Source: Pirellulales bacterium (GTDB lineage Bacteria > Planctomycetota > Planctomycetia > Pirellulales > Thermoguttaceae). Taken from it: a stretch of DNA of 36,089 nucleotides. The position numbers and the translations under genes are program-made. The notes beneath the pieces were generated by a model. The model was not told where the DNA came from. It saw only the letters and a program-made list of their open reading frames with translations, and did no database searches. Location: positions 1 to 36,089 of the forward strand of contig JAFGRD010000082.1 in assembly GCA_016935315.1 (NCBI GenBank). Direction: 5' to 3'. Below are positions 5,075-14,058 of the stretch, in pieces; position 1 is the first letter of the stretch, and each line of letters begins with the position of its first letter.

Positions 5075-6907
5075 TCACGGGTCCACGGTCAGAATCGAAT
5101 ACAGATCCAGTTGTGGCACGGCAACGGTTGCTCGGCCGTCTGCCCAGGTGATATCCAGTAGCATGCCGTCCGGCTGCATCGTCATGGATTTGGGGGTCCT
5201 TTTCAGGCGGATCGAGACCGTCAGCGGCCCGACCGGTTCGATCTTGGTGATTCCTCCGTCCGGTACGTCGGCGTGTGGTCCGGACGTATTCACCAGGTGA
5301 ATCGAGAGCCTTCCGTTTAACATTCGCGGACTGATATCGACACGCTTGCCGCCACGGACTTCGACAATCGGTGTAGGGAAGACTTCCTTCAGCACGCTTG
5401 GGAACGTGTCATCGACACTCTCAACAGCGACGATGGAGAAGTCGTCCTTCATCCCCAGTTCCCTTTTGAAAAGTGTGGCGGGCCCCGGGCCGATCAGCAG
5501 CAGGCCGCCGCCGGTTTTGGCATACGCCGCCAGCTCGTCGCGAAAGTCCGGTTCCAGGTGCTTCCAGCCCGGTACGATAATGAGGGGCCATTGGGGCATC
5601 TTGCCTTTCAGGTGATGCTCGCTAAGGATCTGCACGCCGTACTGGTTCTGCAGAATCTCAGTGAGGGCCCTGCGCAAAACGGCGACGCCGTTGCTACCTG
5701 ACCAATGAAAAAGTCGGGGGGATTCCCGATAGTGACCGGCGGTCGAGTACAGCAATGCGATCTGCGGCACGGCGACCGACCGATGGCAGTAGGCCTGCCG
5801 GTCCCGGCAAAACTGGGCAACCTCGGCCATCACGTCCATCTCGGCCAGATCGCGGACGGCGCCGTCCCGATCCTGCTTGAAGTAAGCTTGATACCCCCCA
5901 CCCAGGGCGAGCACGACCGCCGCTTCCTGCATAAGTTGCACGGACGGCTTCTGTTTGCGTGTCTTGCGGCTGAACGACCACGACATCAGATCCCAGGGTA
6001 CTGCCTGGTCTTCAAGGCACCGTCCGGCAAATCGGGCGGAGTTCACGCTGTCGTCAGGCGAGAAGTCGCCCGAGAGGCCCACCACGTTGGCCGACACCGG
6101 TTCGGGCATGTGATCGCTGAACGCCCAATTGCTGATCACCTGGAAGTCGGGATGCGACGACTCCAATTCGTCCACGTAGTGACGCAGGTAGCGGCGAAAA
6201 CCGTCTCGATGGAAGTCCATCCACTGATTCCAATAGGGTTCGCCGGCTTTGCGCGGAGCCGACTCGGCGTTCGTCTGCTTGCGGAATTCACGGATTGCCG
6301 TCTGGCCGTAGTCGGGTGTCGCCCCCCAGCAGTCGCCGTCGACCCAGACGCCGTCCACGCCGTACTCGCCTGCCAGCTCGCGGAGTTGAGGGATCATCAG
6401 CTCGTCGACATAGGGTCCGAACACGGACGTCGCTCTGCTGTCGGGTTTGCCGTCCGCGTTGACGGCCGCCCAATGTGGATGGGCGTGGGCGGCATGATCA
6501 TCCCACACGCCCGAGTAATGCATGAACAGGGCAACCCCTCGCTCGCGCGTCACGTCGCGCCAGACTCGCAGTGGATCGCCGACGAATCCGGGGGCCGGGT
6601 TGCCCACTCTGGTCGGATAGCTCGAATAGCCGCGATGACCTTTGCAGTCGATCTGGATGTAGTCGGGCCTGACCTTGTCGATGACCAGTGCGACCATTTC
6701 TCGCGTTGTCCGGGCTCCGACACGGCTGCAATCCTCGCCCGCGTGGAAGTCAAAATGGATGCCAAGGAAGGCGTCGCCCCGTTTCATTCGAGGTGGATCC
6801 GCGCCTTGAGACACGATCACATGCAGGCACACGAGGGCTGTACTGAGCACGACGGGCAGGAAGAACCGCATTCGGTAGGGAAAGCCAACAGATCGATCGG
6901 TTCTCAT
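5075..6907 (-). CDS. Secreted glycosidase-like TIM barrel with a beta-galactosidase-trimerisation-like domain
   Basis: The protein has 610 residues. I chose the ATG at 6907, which has CAGGAG upstream; a longer open frame runs on into the repeat element but lacks a ribosome site. The signal peptide is about residues 12-36. About residues 45-400 look like a TIM barrel of the GH29/GH42-like 'putative alpha-L-fucosidase' type, with HFDFHAGEDC, a barrel strand GVDGVWVDGDCWG at 183-195 (D190 and D192 are nucleophile candidates) and an ISNWAFSDHMPEP strand. About residues 400-520 carry a flavodoxin-like segment, LIIVPGWKHL followed by GGGLLLIGPGPA, as in beta-galactosidase trimerisation domains. A beta-sandwich closes the protein. 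It is probably the first gene of the minus-strand run down to the oxidoreductase. The exact GH family and substrate are not determined. Confidence 0.85.
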   Translation of the reverse strand: MRTDRSVGFPYRMRFFLPVVLSTALVCLHVIVSQGADPPRMKRGDAFLGIHFDFHAGEDCSRVGARTTREMVALVIDKVRPDYIQIDCKGHRGYSSYPTRVGNPAPGFVGDPLRVWRDVTRERGVALFMHYSGVWDDHAAHAHPHWAAVNADGKPDSRATSVFGPYVDELMIPQLRELAGEYGVDGVWVDGDCWGATPDYGQTAIREFRKQTNAESAPRKAGEPYWNQWMDFHRDGFRRYLRHYVDELESSHPDFQVISNWAFSDHMPEPVSANVVGLSGDFSPDDSVNSARFAGRCLEDQAVPWDLMSWSFSRKTRKQKPSVQLMQEAAVVLALGGGYQAYFKQDRDGAVRDLAEMDVMAEVAQFCRDRQAYCHRSVAVPQIALLYSTAGHYRESPRLFHWSGSNGVAVLRRALTEILQNQYGVQILSEHHLKGKMPQWPLIIVPGWKHLEPDFRDELAAYAKTGGGLLLIGPGPATLFKRELGMKDDFSIVAVESVDDTFPSVLKEVFPTPIVEVRGGKRVDISPRMLNGRLSIHLVNTSGPHADVPDGGITKIEPVGPLTVSIRLKRTPKSMTMQPDGMLLDITWADGRATVAVPQLDLYSILTVDP

Positions 6908-6995
6908 GTCGGGGGCTCCTGTTTGCAGAGGCAGTGCGGTCCTCGCAGTATTATTACATGCCCAGTGCCCACACGCCAGACCCTCGCCCTCGCGC

Positions 6996-7120
6996 ATTAT
7001 TGACGCTTGCACGCTCAATGCGCGAGGGCGACCCACGGGAGCCCGACTTGTCCGGCCTCCCGTGGGTCGGCCTGGGTCATTCACAATGCAAACATCAATA
7101 AGTCTGCAAGCGTCAATAAT
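6996..7120. repeat. Outer 16-bp perfect inverted arms enclosing copy A
   Basis: ATTATTGACGCTTGCA at 6996-7011 recurs as its exact reverse complement at 7105-7120. The left arm is also the end of the 103-bp element. The right arm is an additional copy lying just outside the element's other end, so copy A appears to be a nested or partly duplicated insertion. An additional inverted pair, CCTCGCGCAT at 6987-6996 with ATGCGCGAGG at 7018-7027, brackets the left arm. Confidence 0.6.
6998..7100 (-). repeat. 103-bp palindromic repeat element, copy A
   Basis: Read on the minus strand, this element matches copy B (13718-13820) at about 92 of 103 positions with no gaps. The ends are imperfect inverted repeats (TATTGACGCTTGCA versus TATTGATGTTTGCA). 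The centre is a 13-bp perfect hairpin, 7029-7041 pairing with 7057-7069 around a 15-nt loop. The pair C7034:G7064 is A:T in copy B, so the stem is conserved by a compensatory change. No encoded protein is visible. It is a candidate non-autonomous (MITE- or REP-like) element. Confidence 0.8.
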
Positions 7121-7324
7121 AATCAGTGGACCGGAGCACCTGTCTCTTCTCACGCCCTCTCCCACGATCGGAATTGGCCATGGCGGCCCGGCGGGGCGGA
7201 CGGCGAACGGCGCAAGCCCTTAACGGAGAAAAAGAACGGATTCACTGGTGGCGATTGGTGCGCGATGTTACAATGGTTGCCGTTATAGGTCAGGATCGTC
7301 CTTATTGATGTGGAAGAGCTAGCG

Positions 7325-9469
7325 ATGAAACGCCGTTTGATCGCGACGGTTGGGTTGGTAATACTGCTGATCGGATGCAGGCTGTTTTCCTCGTCGAACC
7401 ACAGTACAGCGGCGCCGCCGGCCAGTGCAGACGCGGATGGACCGGACGCGGCCGATGAGGGCGGCGACTTTCGACTTCCCTTGAGCGATGACGGCTGGTT
7501 CGACTTGCACTCCCTGCTGGTCGCCAGCGACGGGAGCCGCAGCTTGGGGAACCATCGGGCGCGCTTCAACGACTCGCGGGACCACGGCAGCAAGATCGTC
7601 TTCTTCGATCCGGTCGCGGGCGACAACGACACGGCGGACGTCTATTGGTGGGACGGCCGCCGGATCGTCGATTCGGCCGGCCGGCCGGCCAATCCTGAGA
7701 ACGGCGAAGCCTATGGCATCGATCCCCTGCTGCCCAACGAAAAGGCCGTGCGGCCGTTTCGCCACGGCGTGGGCATGGTGCGCAATGCCGATGCCGACCC
7801 GCGGCTGCGGACAAATGATCGTGATTGCAGCGCCGTCGCCGGCGGATACCCGGACTGGTTTCTCTATCGCCGGGGCCGGACACACGATACGTTTGACAGT
7901 CCCTTGGTCGGTGGACGCAGTGCGCGGGAGCCGATGGTCATCGTCGCCTACGGCCCGCGCGAAGACGGCCGTGCGGTCATGGACCCGGCCGAGGGGAAGC
8001 GGGTGAGCTTCCAGGGCAAGCAGCGGAGCGTCTGCAACCCGATGTCGGCCGGCACGCGGGGGGCCGAGACGGTTTGGATCCATCTGGTCCTCTCGGGACT
8101 GGATGTCCGAGCGCCCTGGTCGGCGTTGGGGGCCCATGAAGCCAACTCCTATTCGGGCGGTCCTGTGACTGCCTATGCGGAGGACTGCCGCTGGGCGTAC
8201 GGTGAAGGAGGGCGGCTGGCCTATTTGCCGCGCGGGACGACGATCCGCCGCAGCGTGGTGGCGTTCAGCTCGCGCGCAAATGCCCATAACCAGGGCTACT
8301 TTGCCAGCGGTTTCCGCTGCTCGACGACGTTCGATGAAGTGATCTTCTATCGCAACGGCTACAAGAGCAACCCGCGCACCGACCCCGACCCAAGACGCGA
8401 CATCTTCAGCCGCAATGTCTATCAGGGCGGCGGCGCGATGCTGGGCCACCGGTACTTGGGCATCATCTCGGCCGACGGCGGCTCGGGTGGGCCGCAGATG
8501 CGACTCGGTGGGCAGATCGAGCGGAGCCTGATCGTGGAAGGTTACTGGTACAACTCGACCAACAGCAACAAGCTGGTCAACCCGTGGCTGATCAGTCGTG
8601 AGCAATCGGGGCAGTCGGCGCTGGTGCGAAACAACGTGCAACTGGTCTTCGCCTTCCCCACGCCCCGCGACCCCGACACGGCCGCGCGCAAATCGTCCCC
8701 CGCGGCCCAGCCCGCCTGGGGATACTCGTTGGCGTCGGCGTCGTTCGGGGCCTTGGTCGAAGGGAACATCATCAGCCAGGCGATGCTGATCGACGAGTTG
8801 GGCGTCGACGAGGGTTCCCGCGGCCACGGGATCGGCCTCTCGACCACGCCCGAGACGTACGAAGACGGCCGCGGCTACTCGCAGCAGAACAACACCATTC
8901 GGGGCAACATCGTCTATCGGACGGGCACGGGGCTGCAGATCCAGGGCGACTGGTCGGACGCCCGCGGCATCGTGGTCGAAAACAACGTGCTGGTGGCCAA
9001 CAGTGCGGTTCAGAACCGGGCTGAGGGGATTGCCGGGCCGGAGGTGCTGAGTCTGCGCAACAATCGTTTCTACGCCCACGGCGGTTTGCCGGGCAAAGAG
9101 TCGTTTGCGTCGGGCAACAAAACGGCCGAGTATGCCAGCGCCGCGGCGGCCGAGGGCTGGCCCGACCCGAACCGCACGCTCAAGCGCTACGTGACCGAAG
9201 TGCTGGGCCTGACGCTGCTGGACTGGGCCGACGCCCCCTGGTTGGACCCGGCGGTGCGCGAGGCGAGAATCCAGGCCGGTGAGAGCTATGACCCGATGGG
9301 CATGAAGACCTTCATGGCCGTGGCCACGAACATGCGCCGCGGCGGCGAGGCGGTGCCCGGCAAGGGCAAGCCGTCTTGGACCGGCGACTACCGCTGGGAC
9401 ACACGTCTGACCGGGCCGGCCGTGGTGAATTGGATCCGCGCCGGGTTCGGGCTGCCGGCAGTCGAGTGA
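7325..9469 (+). CDS. Large right-handed beta-helix-like lipoprotein
   Basis: The protein has 714 residues. The ATG at 7325 is preferred over the in-frame GTG at 7310 because GGAAGAG lies 8 nt before it and the signal then starts normally (MKRRLIATVG). The lipobox LIGC (15-18) makes Cys18 a lipidation site. After a low-complexity Ala/Ser/Asp linker, the protein has a long beta-rich region. About residues 490-590 show repeated short strands of parallel beta-helix type (EGNIISQAML, NTIRGNIVYR, GIVVENNVLVANS). Such folds commonly bind or cleave acidic polysaccharides, but no catalytic Asp/Arg set of a named lyase family could be assigned. It is the first gene of a plus-strand run with the serine hydrolase 113 bp downstream. 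Confidence 0.8.
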   Translation: MKRRLIATVGLVILLIGCRLFSSSNHSTAAPPASADADGPDAADEGGDFRLPLSDDGWFDLHSLLVASDGSRSLGNHRARFNDSRDHGSKIVFFDPVAGDNDTADVYWWDGRRIVDSAGRPANPENGEAYGIDPLLPNEKAVRPFRHGVGMVRNADADPRLRTNDRDCSAVAGGYPDWFLYRRGRTHDTFDSPLVGGRSAREPMVIVAYGPREDGRAVMDPAEGKRVSFQGKQRSVCNPMSAGTRGAETVWIHLVLSGLDVRAPWSALGAHEANSYSGGPVTAYAEDCRWAYGEGGRLAYLPRGTTIRRSVVAFSSRANAHNQGYFASGFRCSTTFDEVIFYRNGYKSNPRTDPDPRRDIFSRNVYQGGGAMLGHRYLGIISADGGSGGPQMRLGGQIERSLIVEGYWYNSTNSNKLVNPWLISREQSGQSALVRNNVQLVFAFPTPRDPDTAARKSSPAAQPAWGYSLASASFGALVEGNIISQAMLIDELGVDEGSRGHGIGLSTTPETYEDGRGYSQQNNTIRGNIVYRTGTGLQIQGDWSDARGIVVENNVLVANSAVQNRAEGIAGPEVLSLRNNRFYAHGGLPGKESFASGNKTAEYASAAAAEGWPDPNRTLKRYVTEVLGLTLLDWADAPWLDPAVREARIQAGESYDPMGMKTFMAVATNMRRGGEAVPGKGKPSWTGDYRWDTRLTGPAVVNWIRAGFGLPAVE

Positions 9470-9582
9470 GGTCCCGGCTCTCCTGCCCGATCGTGTGTTG
9501 CCCTTGGAGTTGGACACCCTCGAACAACAAACCGACAGAACTCTTCCCGCTTTTTCGCCGCGAAAACCAGCAGAGGTGAACC

Positions 9583-11298
9583 GTGAACGCCGTGACTCCT
9601 ACTCTGTGCCGATTCGCCCTGGCAGCGATGGTCTTCCTTCTCTTTCTTGCTGCCGTGGGGCATGGCGCGCCGGCGGATGTTGACTATGCTCCGGTCGTTG
9701 CCGAGGTCGAGCAACTCGTCAAAGCGGAATTGGACCGGGGCATCCTGACCGGCGTGTCGGTAGCCTTGGTCTCCGACCAGCGGATCGTGTTCGCCGAGGG
9801 GTTCGGATGGGCCGATGAGGCGACGCGGCGACCGGCGACACGACAGACCATTTACCGGGCGGGTTCGATCTCGAAACTGTTCACGGCGTTGTCGGCCATG
9901 CAACTGGTCGAGCGAGGTGTGCTCGAACTGGATCGGCCCGTGAACACTTACTGCCCCGACTTTCGGATTGTCGTGCCGTTCGAAGACGCCGATCCGATCA
10001 CGCTGCGACAACTGATGTGCCATCGGTCCGGGCTGGTCCGTGAGTCGCCCGTGGGCGGTTACTTCGACCCGGGGGAGCCCTCGGTTTCCGAGACCGTCGC
10101 GAGTCTCGCCGACTGCGTCCTGGTACATCGGCCGAACACGAAGACGAAGTACTCCAACATCGGCGTGACCGTTGTCGGGCACGTGGTGTCCAAGGTGTCG
10201 GGTCAGCCATTTTCGGCCTATGCACGCGATCACCTCCTGAAGCCGATCGGGATGACCGGTTCCGCATTCCTGGCCGACCAGGCGGTCCGGGAGCACCTGG
10301 CGACCAGCTACATGCAGGTGGCCGATGGCCGAGGCGGATTCCGCCGGATCGAGAGTCCGGTATTCGAGCTAGGCACCCTACCGGCCGGCAATCTCTATAC
10401 GTCGGCGGAGGATCTGGGCCGGTTCCTTGTGTTCTTGTTTGCCGCGGGGACCGTTGAAGGAAAGCCTCTGATCAAGCCCGAGTCGCTGGAGACCATGTTT
10501 ACGCCCCAGTTGGTCGAAGCGGAATCGGGCTTCGGCCTGGGATTCCATGTCGGCCGGTTTCGCGATTACAAGCAGGTCAGCCACACGGGCGCGGTCTATG
10601 GATTCAGCTCTTCGTTGACAGCCGTTCCGGAACTGAAAGTGGGCGTGGTCGTGTTGGCCAACGAAGACATTGCCACCGGGCCGGTTCGCAAGCTTTCCGC
10701 CGCCGCGCTGGAGCGGATGGCCGACGCCCGGCTGAACATCGCAGCGGCGCCCGAGGTGGCCCTGGCCAGCGCGGAGCCGCCTGAGGTGAAACCCTATCTG
10801 GGGGGTTACGAATCGGAGAGCTACTGGGCGCGCATCGAATCGCACGGCGGGCAGTTGACGGCGGTCGTTTCCGGACAACGTCTCGTGCTTACGGCGATAG
10901 ACGCCGACGAGTATTCGGCCGACGGACGGTGGGCTACGGATTCGCCGGTCGAGTTTGCGCGGGACGACGACGGCCGAGTCTCCGGCTTCGAGGCGCTGGG
11001 GCAGACGTTCCGGCGAGTCGACCCGCAAGCGGTGCCGCCCGTGCCGGACGCATGGCGCGAATTCCTCGGCAGCTACGGCCCCGATTTCATCCCGCTGGTC
11101 GTTTCCATCAAGCACGGTCATCTCTATGCGATGACCGAGAACATGGTCGACTACCGGCTTACGCCGCTGAACCGCACGGTCTTCAAGATGCCGCCGGGTA
11201 TGTACGAGGACGAGCAACTGGTTTTCCAGGTGGGCCCCGACGGAAGCGTGCACGGCACGGTGCTGGCGGGCATGATCCTGCGTCGCACGGACCCATAG
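9583..11298 (+). CDS. Secreted beta-lactamase/penicillin-binding-like serine hydrolase
   Basis: The protein has 571 residues. The GTG at 9583 follows AGAGGTG, and a signal peptide runs to about residue 28 (AAVGHGAPA). The serine beta-lactamase-like (class C/EstB) domain has all three expected motifs: S95-I-S-K98, Y190-S-N192 and H334-T-G336. Residues beyond about 400 form a C-terminal beta-barrel-like extension of the sort often seen in D-aminopeptidase- or esterase-like members (LGSYGPDFIPLVVSIKHG). These enzymes act on D-amino-acid peptides, esters or amides outside the cytoplasm; resistance to antibiotics is not implied. The DUF819 transporter-like gene starts 10 bp after its stop, so the pair is almost certainly an operon in which the hydrolase product may be taken up. 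Confidence 0.92.
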   Translation: MNAVTPTLCRFALAAMVFLLFLAAVGHGAPADVDYAPVVAEVEQLVKAELDRGILTGVSVALVSDQRIVFAEGFGWADEATRRPATRQTIYRAGSISKLFTALSAMQLVERGVLELDRPVNTYCPDFRIVVPFEDADPITLRQLMCHRSGLVRESPVGGYFDPGEPSVSETVASLADCVLVHRPNTKTKYSNIGVTVVGHVVSKVSGQPFSAYARDHLLKPIGMTGSAFLADQAVREHLATSYMQVADGRGGFRRIESPVFELGTLPAGNLYTSAEDLGRFLVFLFAAGTVEGKPLIKPESLETMFTPQLVEAESGFGLGFHVGRFRDYKQVSHTGAVYGFSSSLTAVPELKVGVVVLANEDIATGPVRKLSAAALERMADARLNIAAAPEVALASAEPPEVKPYLGGYESESYWARIESHGGQLTAVVSGQRLVLTAIDADEYSADGRWATDSPVEFARDDDGRVSGFEALGQTFRRVDPQAVPPVPDAWREFLGSYGPDFIPLVVSIKHGHLYAMTENMVDYRLTPLNRTVFKMPPGMYEDEQLVFQVGPDGSVHGTVLAGMILRRTDP

Positions 11299-11308
11299 GA
11301 GCGCCTCC

Positions 11309-12571
11309 TTGAATTCAAGTTGCATCGGCACGACGGCCCCTTGGGTCTGGTTCAAGAGTCTTCAAGACATGCCGGCGCTGGTAGCGCCTGGCGACGCCTG
11401 GACACTGTGGGCGATTATACTGGCGGGAGTCGCGGCCAGCATCTACTTGGAGCAGACCTACCGGTGGGCGGCCAAGATGAGTGGGCCCGTGCTGGCCCTG
11501 GTGGCGGCGATGGTGCTGTCGAATCTGAAGATCACCCCGACAGCATCGCCCACGTACGACGTGGTCCACGATTACCTGGTGCCGATCGCCATTCCACTGC
11601 TGCTGATGCGAGCCGACGTCCGGCGGATCGTCCGCACAAGCGGCACGATGTTCGCCGCGTTCCATCTCAGCGCGCTGGGAACACTCCTGGGCGCGTTGCT
11701 GGCCGCCTGGTTGTTTCGCGGCGTCTTCGAGCATCTGGCGGAGGTAACCGGGATCATGACTGCCAGCTACACGGGCGGCGGCGTCAACTTCTTTGCCGTC
11801 AAGGGGTCGTTCCAGGTCAGCGAAGATCTCACCAATCCGCTGCTTGTCGCCGATAATTTCATCATGGCGGGGATCTTCGGCTTGCTGCTGGTGCTCGCCG
11901 GAACGCGGCTCTTGCTGCGGCTGTACCCCCATCCGCACTCGCTGGAAACCAACACCGAGAACGGACGCTCACTGGCGGCCGAACACTGGCGGCCCAAGCA
12001 GATTTCGCTGTTGGACATTGCCAAATGCCTTGCCTTCGCCGTGGTGGTTTCGGCAGTCTCCCACAAGCTCGCTGCGGCCATCGCAGCGACTTCGTTGCCG
12101 CCCTTGGCGCGAGCAGTCGTCGGCAACCAGTACGTGCTGATCACCCTGCTTTCGGTGACCGCCGCCACGCTGCTTCACCGGCGGATCGAGAAGATCGGCG
12201 GTTCCGAGGAGTTGGGCGCCTATCTGCTCTATACGTTCTTCTTCGTGATCGGCTTGCCGGCGGATTTGGTGGCCGTGATGACCAAAGTGCCCATGATGTT
12301 TGTCTTCTGTCTGGTAATCGCCCTGGTGAACTTGACGGTCACCTTGCTGCTGGGAAAACTGCTGCGGCTGAACCTCGAGGAGCTGTTGGTCTGCGTCAAC
12401 GCCACGCTGGGAGGTCCCCCGTCGGCCGCGGCGATGGCGATCACCAAGGGCTGGTCGAAACTGGTGCTGCCGGCGCTGCTGGTGGGAATCTGGGGGTACG
12501 TGATCGGCACGTTTCTCGGCGTGCTGGTCGGCGAGACGTTGCGGCTCTGGATGACGGGCGGAGGCACCTGA
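11309..12571 (+). CDS. DUF819 family multi-pass membrane protein
   Basis: The protein has 420 residues with about ten or more hydrophobic helices. The TTG start at 11309 is chosen because GGAG overlapping the preceding stop is 7 nt away; an internal ATG at 11369 would lose only the non-hydrophobic leader. The DUF819 signatures are clear: TASYTGGGVNF at 151-161 with a following LVADNFIMAGIFG, and LGGPPSAAAMA around 367-377 followed by KGW. The family (YjcL-like) is a putative transporter with unknown substrate, and its two Gly-rich half-repeats suggest inverted-topology carrier architecture. Its immediate coupling to an exported serine hydrolase suggests import of a small peptide, amino acid or acid released outside, which is inference. 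Confidence 0.92.
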   Translation: MNSSCIGTTAPWVWFKSLQDMPALVAPGDAWTLWAIILAGVAASIYLEQTYRWAAKMSGPVLALVAAMVLSNLKITPTASPTYDVVHDYLVPIAIPLLLMRADVRRIVRTSGTMFAAFHLSALGTLLGALLAAWLFRGVFEHLAEVTGIMTASYTGGGVNFFAVKGSFQVSEDLTNPLLVADNFIMAGIFGLLLVLAGTRLLLRLYPHPHSLETNTENGRSLAAEHWRPKQISLLDIAKCLAFAVVVSAVSHKLAAAIAATSLPPLARAVVGNQYVLITLLSVTAATLLHRRIEKIGGSEELGAYLLYTFFFVIGLPADLVAVMTKVPMMFVFCLVIALVNLTVTLLLGKLLRLNLEELLVCVNATLGGPPSAAAMAITKGWSKLVLPALLVGIWGYVIGTFLGVLVGETLRLWMTGGGT

Positions 12572-12786
12572 CGGCGATGGTACGAAGTCCCGCCGACCCG
12601 GCAGTGGGTCGAGCGCCGATCATACGCTGACCGGGCGGATGCTTCGCCTTGCCCTATCGGTGGAAAGACACTGTCGGCCGCCTCTGTGACTGAGGGCGGA
12701 TCGTGTCGGGGACTGTCTCGATTCGCTCGCAGCGAGAAGGGGACCGTCGCCCCGGGGCCCTGGGTGCAGACAGTTGCCCGTTTCGC
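12572..12786. other. Convergent intergenic spacer with short GGGGAC repeats
   Basis: This 215-bp spacer lies between the DUF819 gene and the isomerase, which converge on it. It contains GGGGACTGTC at 12709-12718, GGGGACCGTC at 12739-12748, an inverted GACAGT at 12769-12774, and a small hairpin TCGCTCGCAGCGA between the first two. No T-run follows, so a classical intrinsic terminator is not supported, although the position suits a bidirectional end of transcription. Confidence 0.35.
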
Positions 12787-13692
12787 TCAGACCAACTCGC
12801 CGGCCGTCTTCTCGACGAAGGCGAGGCACTGGGCGACCTCTTCGAGCAGCTTCGGGGAATCGTGCTCGTACTCCAACGACATCACGCCTTGAAAGCCCTG
12901 CCGCTTCAGCTCCTTCAACACGGCAGAGTAGTCGGCCCGGCCGGTGCCCAGCGGAACGTCCCGGGCTTCGGGCTTGCCCCATTCGGCGACGTCCTTCAAA
13001 TGGAACGTGATGATTCGGCCTTCCATCTTTTTGAGACACTCGATCGGATTCAAGCCGGAGCGGACCCAGTGTCCCGTGTCGCAACAGGCGCCGATCCGCT
13101 TGCCGCGGCCTTGGCACGCGGCCATGACGCTGTCGGGGTTCCAGTAGTGGGAGCTGGGCGATTGGGGGTGGTTGTGGACCGCCAGGTTGATCTGGTACTG
13201 GTCGCACAGCTTCTCGACCATGTCGAAGGCCTCGGCGGGCGGTTCGGCGACGATCGTCCGGGCGCCCATCTCCTTGGCGAACTCGAACGCCTTGGCGGCG
13301 GCACTCTGGTCCGCGTCGATGCCCGCATAGTAATTGGGCATGCTGATGCCGTAGTCGGCCATCCGCTGCTTCATCTCCTTGCGGAGCAGGGCCGAGAGCG
13401 ATTCGCCCGTCTTCAGCTCGGGCCGCGCCTTGTCCAGACCGAGGAAGAAACACGGCTCGACGTGCGCCACGCCCAGCTTCGCGATCATTTCCAGCGCTTC
13501 GTAGAAGCAGAAGCGGCGGAAGGTATAGAGCTGGCAAGCAACCGGCCAGCCGATCTTCTCGGCGGTCGGCGTGCTGCGTTTGGGGGCCTCGGCGGCAGCG
13601 ACGCGGAGATTGCCCAAACTGGCGTAAGAAGCTCCGGCCGCCGCCGCGGCGGTCGCTCGCAGGAACGTACGACGGTCAACAGATCGTGTCAT
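12787..13692 (-). CDS. Tat-exported sugar phosphate isomerase/epimerase-like TIM barrel
   Basis: The protein has 301 residues. The ATG at 13692 has AAGGAG 9 nt upstream. A twin-arginine signal (DRRTFLRATAAAAAG, residues 6-20) leads the exported protein. The remainder is a xylose-isomerase-like (AP_endonuc_2) barrel with strand-end metal-ligand candidates E150, D205 (CCDTGHW), H231 (ITFHLKD) and E274 (SLEYEHD), as expected for hydroxypyruvate isomerase and 3-keto-sugar epimerase/hydratase relatives. It has the usual family length. It stands alone on the minus strand, and repeat copy B begins 25 bp upstream of its start codon, so its 5' leader or promoter may include that element. Its likely role is isomerisation or epimerisation of a sugar in the periplasm, with the substrate unknown. 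Confidence 0.92.
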   Translation of the reverse strand: MTRSVDRRTFLRATAAAAAGASYASLGNLRVAAAEAPKRSTPTAEKIGWPVACQLYTFRRFCFYEALEMIAKLGVAHVEPCFFLGLDKARPELKTGESLSALLRKEMKQRMADYGISMPNYYAGIDADQSAAAKAFEFAKEMGARTIVAEPPAEAFDMVEKLCDQYQINLAVHNHPQSPSSHYWNPDSVMAACQGRGKRIGACCDTGHWVRSGLNPIECLKKMEGRIITFHLKDVAEWGKPEARDVPLGTGRADYSAVLKELKRQGFQGVMSLEYEHDSPKLLEEVAQCLAFVEKTAGELV

Positions 13693-14058
13693 GATACGGG
13701 CTCCTTCGGGAGTGCTCTATTGATGTTTGCATTGCGAATGATCAAGGCCGACCAACGGGAGGCCGGAAAAATCGGGCTCCCGTTGGTCGCCCTCGCGCAT
13801 TGACTATGCAAACGTCAATAGTTGGCGAGTGACTTCTCCACGGATGCTCGACGTCCGGCAGGACCCCATTCTATCACACGACGGGGGGCGTGCGGTAGTA
13901 GCCGCCTGTGGATTCTGGACGCGGCCTCTTGAAAGGGCCGCTCGCCCTGCTATGCTGGATCCGTTGGCGGTCATCTCTCACCTTGCCGACTGCCACGAGC
14001 CGATGCACGTTTCCCGGTATTTCCCTTCAGTATTTCACACCTCACGAAAGGCATCATT
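13693..14058. other. Divergent intergenic region carrying repeat copy B
   Basis: This 366-bp gap separates the isomerase (minus) and the beta-helix/PKD gene (plus). Repeat copy B occupies 13718-13820. The remaining 230 bp holds no gene that I can support and no obvious promoter pair. Confidence 0.6.
13718..13820 (+). repeat. 103-bp palindromic repeat element, copy B
   Basis: The ends are inverted repeats: CTATTGATGTTTGCAT (13717-13732) against ATGCAAACGTCAATAG (13806-13821), matching at 15 of 16 positions. A 13-bp perfect hairpin lies inside, 13749-13761 pairing with 13777-13789 around a 15-nt loop. It equals copy A in length and matches it at about 92 of 103 positions in the opposite orientation. 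Both ends carry TA, which could be the duplicated target of a Tc1/IS630-type insertion (inference). There is no coding capacity. Confidence 0.8.

Follow-up and report, generated by a model that had tools for sequence, protein, structure and literature searches.

The two 103-bp repeats of the window, by which we mean the whole stretch of 36,089 nucleotides analysed here (contig C124 of a 7.10-Mb draft genome, G000, in 172 contigs and 95% complete), are copies of a small gene-less transposon, and belong to a large family of MITEs in this genome. We consider it highly probable that the element is an IS630/Tc1-type MITE of about 103 bp, which inserts at TA within YTAR, is mobilised in trans as judged from the ends of related elements, and carries an accessory module that is not required for movement.

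The two copies lie in opposite orientation and are identical at 92 of 103 positions after inverting one of them. Each starts with TATTGA and stops with TCAATA, and on folding each gives a central 13-bp perfect hairpin, so that the equal-length inverted copies, the ends and the hairpin described in the first-pass annotation all stand on re-measurement. The same holds for the difference within the stem that it had pointed out, a C:G pair in copy A (7034/7064) against an A:T pair in copy B (13754/13784). The features of the two copies are as follows.

6998 to 7100, plus strand: MITE copy A, 103 bp, young subfamily, C:G at pair 37:67 (sequence, genome search and alignment of copies).
13718 to 13820, minus strand: MITE copy B, 103 bp, A:T at pair 37:67, ATTTTT loop type (sequence and genome search).
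6984 to 6997, no strand assigned: remnant of an older copy to the left of the copy A insertion, reading TCGCCCTCGCGCAT (alignment).
7101 to 7118, no strand assigned: remnant of the same older copy to the right of copy A, reading AGTCTGCAAGCGTCAATA (alignment).
6998 to 6999, no strand assigned: TA, left copy of the copy A target duplication (the older-copy alignment is gapless only with one TA).
7099 to 7100, no strand assigned: TA, right copy of the copy A target duplication (alignment to the older copy).
7026 to 7044, plus strand: left arm hairpin module of copy A, GGGC-loop-GCCC, its loop off the consensus by C at 7034 (position in element).
7054 to 7072, minus strand: right arm hairpin module of copy A, GGCC-loop-GGCC (position in element).
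13774 to 13792, minus strand: left arm hairpin module of copy B, GGGC-GACCAACGGGA-GCCC (position in element).
13746 to 13764, plus strand: right arm hairpin module of copy B, GGCC-GACCAACGGGA-GGCC (position in element).

The first-pass annotation had raised the prospect that the genome might hold these two copies only. An exact core pattern finds 74 matches in the parent genome and none in the reversed control, and a sequence-only model gives at least 151 genome matches (150 of 7353 candidates scored), which together exclude chance as the source of the repeat. A search with the 103-base sequence gives at least 45 matches (40 of 429 candidates scored), a few of which count a palindromic copy again on its other strand. 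Twelve contigs totalling 1,614,164 bases contain 114 non-overlapping copies, 98 of them near full-length and 83 exactly 103 bp long. The element makes up about 0.7% of this sampled sequence, and extrapolation from the 1.61-Mb sample gives about 500 copies genome-wide, an estimate that may be high because the twelve contigs were picked from hit lists. When the 83 copies are split two ways, 50 fall into a younger subfamily with a mean of 7.5 differences from its own consensus, and the other 33 into an older subfamily with a mean of 13.0. Terminal inverted repeats (TIRs) are present, the left and right halves of the consensus being identical at 37 of 51 positions. Two near-tandem pairs of copies with a period of 98 (G000:C78:191091-191291 and C16:17626-17825) look like local duplications, not separate insertions.

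The flanks of the copies give a consistent picture of the target. Among the 98 near full-length copies, C or T precedes the left end in 92 and A or G follows the right end in 95, and a YTAR context is found in 39 of the 43 copies with TA at both ends as against 5.6% of 23,483 TA sites of the same contigs taken as background (binomial p about 1e-44). Duplication of a TA, which is a mark of IS630/Tc1-type insertion, is seen at three reconstructed empty sites, such as the annotation had suggested looking for, and each of these aligns best when one TA is kept. Copy A is nested in an older copy, and the sequence on either side of copy A aligns gapless to the consensus only with exactly one TA. The copies at C97:106006 and C164:91412 each interrupt another repeat, and here too one TA scores best, at the first site with 86 against 79 and 79 and with 80 against 70 and 74, and at the second narrowly (104 against 101 and 97). 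The repeat near G000:C97 106006 is a second repeat family, with seven similar places in the twelve sampled contigs (on C97, C164, C135, C78 and C123), one of which a MITE copy interrupts.

These features bear on the possibility that we are dealing with a palindrome of the REP/REPIN type that a RAYT (IS200/IS605-like) transposase mobilises, and not with a transposon defined by TIRs and TA. High copy number, an intergenic location and a strong hairpin are shared with such repeats, and the available part of PMC3733652 reports palindromic repeats of that kind in Planctomycetes. The same part of that source describes REP sequences as small hairpins of 20–40 bp accompanied by a GTAG or CGTC tag, whereas our element is 103 bp long, runs from TATTGA to TCAATA and lacks either tag beside a hairpin of that size. 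It differs from these high-copy, mostly intergenic hairpins above all in its inverted terminal repeats, its YTAR targeting and the TA duplication at the three empty sites, and we regard a REP/REPIN origin as very improbable.

With a home-made gene call, 91 of 113 placed copies lie between genes, whereas a 103-bp stretch placed at random falls within a gene in 82% of cases. The neighbouring genes are tandem for 49 of the intergenic copies, divergent for 28 and convergent for 14, against 61%, 23% and 16% for random intergenic positions by the same call. Both window copies have divergent neighbours by this call, as the annotation had claimed, though the minus-strand gene at 5075–7165, if called as the longest ORF, extends over copy A. 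However, as 28 of 91 copies in the 1.6-Mb sample compare with 23% of random positions, divergent gaps are not strongly preferred.

A mostly intergenic location together with a stable fold would fit a domesticated regulatory element, in which each 103-bp hairpin is kept at its site as a functional RNA or terminator and spread is secondary. However, the intergenic copies track random intergenic positions closely, and a scan of the whole window against Rfam gives no family at the gathering score. Sub-threshold matches around copy A (mir-4788, b55, ROSE_3 and MIR3440; E 0.47 or more) are taken as chance. Seven loci of relatives give two weak Rfam matches (E 0.59 and 0.86), neither of them over the element.

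The alignment of the 83 copies of exactly 103 bp speaks to the same question. At pair 37:67, the one that differs between copies A and B, 66 copies have A:T, four have C:G, two have G:T and 11 have no standard pair; the loop type is the same in three of the four C:G copies, and therefore part of this signal can be descent. The 15 pairs of the long hairpin give 1245 cells in this alignment, of which 1141 are paired and 104 broken, and nine are changed on both sides. The number of paired cells slightly exceeds that in shuffles (mean 1127.7, sd 2.6), and none of 1000 shuffles reaches it. Covariation in the long hairpin is thus a weak signal over a background of decay. The first-pass annotation had taken the hairpin to be under selection or copied as a fold, and what survives of the selection is the small excess of paired cells, the stem being for the most part in decay. 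It had also named variation of the stem without pairing as the contrary outcome, and this occurs in part, most changes in the own genome being uncompensated. Across genera, the part that covaries is not the long hairpin but a shorter hairpin within each arm (described below), and this covariation would favour domestication. So would the lower divergence of the stems of these arm modules relative to the TIRs (0.05–0.08 against 0.12–0.16 per site in the older subfamily, and 0.035–0.065 against 0.063–0.077 in the younger), a comparison in which the copies were found with a model that itself favours conserved sites. Given decay along the whole length of the copies, we nevertheless think it quite unlikely that the element is a domesticated one.

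Similar elements occur in other genomes of the order, which is presumably Pirellulales. With copy B as query there are matches in 14 of 59 related genomes, own genome excluded, and the arm hairpin GGSCGACCAACGGRAGSCC is found in 28 of 296 genomes of the order, own genome included, which span ten families by their labels, with none in the reversed control. One of these arm-hairpin matches, in G234, is a false positive that lacks such ends and lies within a glycine-rich coding-like repeat. Reading the relatives' loci gave 56 accepted elements, four of which are strands of own-genome copies, and six were set aside for poor ends. The accepted elements are 102–110 bp long (52 of 56 at 102–106 bp), a range partly imposed by an end finder that looked within fixed limits only, and the hairpin sits at offset 28–29 in 53 of 56. 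A search on the TIRs alone, which allowed 88–118 bp, gives elements of 101–115 bp. The inverted repeats of relatives match at up to 24 of 24 positions in the terminal 24 nt (L184), and a query that joins the module to the right half and 29 nt of flanking sequence gives, with fragments counted, 69 matches in G130 and 23 in G104. Module-bearing elements of about 103 bp are present in at least eight families (f1, f2, f3, f7, f13, f14, f16 and f19). Phylum-wide, a TIR-plus-loop pattern matches 7 of 392 genomes, three of them inside the order; the four outside it, among about 380 genomes, compare with three in the reversed control, and none of them has a TIR by eye. Literature searches in an open-access library listed no paper naming the element.

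The same families also harbour possible partners. These IS630-family elements are 1101–1142 bp long, start and finish with TA, and have termini that are mostly of the TATTGA or TACTC type. Transposase pieces of three of them score 96–103 bits against the NCBIfam model transpos_IS630, whose cut-off of 100 applies to the whole protein, and one of the three, also scanned against Pfam, matches DDE_3. Their transposases are encoded in two successive frames, a DNA-binding part followed by a DDE part (L153 1010–2028, L155 1014–2028 and L061 1013–2031), an arrangement that suggests frameshifting. At the end of the IS630 element of G057, the minus strand of L155 (2053–2490) also encodes a protein of 145 aa, which looks by eye like a transposase of the IS200 type.

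The IS630 end pairs for this comparison were selected by eye: out of 30 loci 13 were used, and one further candidate pair, in L248, was omitted. The terminal 27 nt of these elements are identical to the nearest MITE ends at 19–24 of 27 positions, whereas in a control with positions 7–27 shuffled the best match has a mean of 16.2, a 95th percentile of 18 and a maximum of 21. For 9 of the 13 testable IS630 elements the nearest MITE belongs to the same family (that of G236 tied with a MITE of another family), for the other four to a different family, and the mean within-family excess of end similarity is reached in 1 of 5000 label permutations (p = 0.0002). The IS630 elements of G026 and of G000 C149, both in f1, are 82% identical in the part compared and so are not independent. 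The G125 IS630 element and the G091 MITE, of the same genus label, for example match at 24 of 27, and the G110 element matches the MITEs of its own family at 22 of 27. The f2 IS630 elements start with TACTC and the f2 MITEs with TATTC, and one f13 IS630 element starts with TACTC too.

The own genome gives a different result. Its two IS630 places with a visible end, C149 (1104 bp between ends) and C77 (one end seen), match the MITE ends at 15–17 of 27, which is the level of the shuffled control, and a weak DDE_3 place on C74 has no such ends. As neither IS630 place matches closely, we infer the partner of the own-genome MITE rather than see it, and with the draft 95% complete this transposase may be missing or lost. 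A full-length element sharing the ends, which the annotation had proposed to seek, was thus not found in the own genome draft, although IS630 elements with similar ends are present in related genomes. The annotation's tentative assignment to the Tc1/IS630-type MITEs is borne out by the many copies, the TA duplication, the YTAR preference and these IS630 ends.

The most probable explanation for the observations is that the element is a non-autonomous DNA transposon, which inserts at TA within YTAR, duplicates the TA and has been amplified in at least two subfamilies. An IS630-family (Tc1-like) DDE transposase would move it in trans by acting at the TIR of about 27 bp, a proposal that draws on relatives in other genera whose inverted repeats are like those of IS630 elements in the same lineages. 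Each half consists of a TIR and, behind it, a 19-nt module, both halves carrying the module in the own genome, and the MITE group that has the module is spread over the order Pirellulales.

The module is a 19-nt hairpin, GGSC-GACCAACGGRA-GSCC, which adjoins the TIR in many relatives. When relatives were folded, 12 of 23 gave a stem of four pairs, then an internal loop of GA/RA, two further pairs (CC/GG) and a triloop AAC, and the other 11 prefer other folds. In the own genome the left arm has the stem GGGC/GCCC and the right arm GGCC/GGCC. Because the two arm stems differ, positions 31, 45, 59 and 73 pair within the arms and mismatch across the long hairpin, and it is because both halves carry the module that the central hairpin is long and the element near-palindromic.

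A search with the loop fixed and the stem free matched 35 of 396 genomes, and 63 TIR-like rows from other genomes were used to examine covariation; searches that require the loop cannot measure loop conservation. Across genomes the module stem covaries: 221 of its 252 cells are paired, whereas 2000 shuffles average 194.6 and never exceed 206, a comparison that ignores relatedness. In these 63 rows pair 3 is G:C in 30, C:G in 19 and T:A in one, and pair 1 is C:G in one genome. Within the own genome, by contrast, the arm stems show little or no covariation: 302 of 332 cells are paired in the left arm, a value that 47 of 1000 shuffles reach, and 317 of 332 in the right, which all 1000 reach.

The search on the TIRs alone listed matches from 24 of 396 genomes, and by eye a module-type hairpin is present in 17 of them. 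The listed MITEs of the other seven (G221, G167, G162, G181, G045, G011 and G026) have none, which indicates that mobility does not depend on the module; two of the seven, G181 and G026, do carry it in other copies. The module is thus common and structured, yet not obligatory. The module-less elements of these seven genomes are about 101–115 bp long with TATTGA-type ends, and several have a different internal palindrome; one IS630 group may lie behind several MITE interiors of similar length. In 14 IS630 elements the module was not found (best 12–14 of 19 positions).

It is possible, though we doubt it, that within the MITE the module is a functionless fossil of descent, two ancestral versions having been inherited as blocks. 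Most copies do have one of two stem versions, GGGC/GCCC and GGCC/GGCC, and this reading would accommodate both the genomes whose listed MITEs lack the module and the near absence of arm-stem covariation inside the own genome. However, there are further matched stems, GGTC/GACC in G081, CGGC/GCCG in G354 and AGGC/GCCT in G047, and one copy in G104 keeps its stem despite an altered loop (GGGC-TCTGAGCAGAA-GCCC). Moreover, the module is still recognisable beside TIRs that now belong to different IS630-like types, as found with searches that require the loop. Loops reading GCCCAACGGAA occur in G202, G192 and G229, and the combination GGCC/GTGCC of one lineage (G131 and G213), which pairs only with a bulge and speaks against the covariation, was scored as broken. 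In our main reading the module would instead aid the spread or persistence of the MITE, for example as structured single-stranded DNA or RNA, or as a site for a host protein.

Hairpins resembling the module also occur far outside the order. In a scan of contigs across phyla at least 60 stretches match the hairpin pattern, which is repeated in Oscillospiraceae, Flavobacterium, Lentisphaerae and Acidobacteriia and has single matches in two haloarchaea; the contexts are unlike that of the Pirellulales MITE, and a separate scan of the same contigs with the long core gives no match. Mismatched stems are found in only 2 of the 63 listed matches (L272 and L278), though the pattern permits matched and mismatched stems equally, which argues against chance. 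Loci in other phyla with the exact hairpin are L269, L275, L280–L282, L287, L288, L296, L298, L299, L302–L305, L307–L309, L315–L317, L322, L323 and L328, several of them with a longer stem by eye. The matched hairpin of L319 looks like ordinary coding sequence, and an Rfam match to Flavo-1 over the module of L317 was set aside, the module sitting in a 74-nt insert outside the model's description. In viral contigs the hairpin pattern is not enriched (three stretches, against seven, five and five for three altered loops). One might speculate, at rather long odds in our judgement, that the module is a functional nucleic-acid unit kept while the TIRs switch IS630 transposases, and that its recurrence, archaea included, points to a conserved single-strand-binding partner.

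Several known systems offer parallels, compared here by description. RUP of S. pneumoniae is, according to the available part of PMC2229807, a 107-bp element with TIRs, a TA target and ends like those of IS630-Spn1, intergenic and present in 108 copies; the likeness thus covers size, TIRs, target, IS630-like ends and location. RUP is described there from one species and with no functional motif reported in that part of the source, whereas the Pirellulales group extends over at least eight families, many of its members with an internal hairpin. The Correia/NEMIS elements of Neisseria, as portrayed in the same part of PMC2229807, have a short form of about 105–107 bp with a 24-bp TIR, terminal TA, a target duplication and stem-loop transcripts, and a long form with an IHF site, where the Pirellulales element has its 19-nt hairpin module. 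The IS630 elements of Pirellulales themselves (for example those of G125, G236, G110 and G056) are like the MITE in their terminal 27 nt, their mostly TATTGA or TACTC starts and their TA ends, and unlike it in that they encode a transposase and that the hairpin module was not found in them.

Taken together, these elements form a natural series of small transposons in which the ends follow the IS630 elements of each lineage and the internal hairpin stays recognisable across families. Such a series opens two old questions to testing: by what route a non-autonomous element changes from one transposase to another, and whether MITE interiors have any effect.
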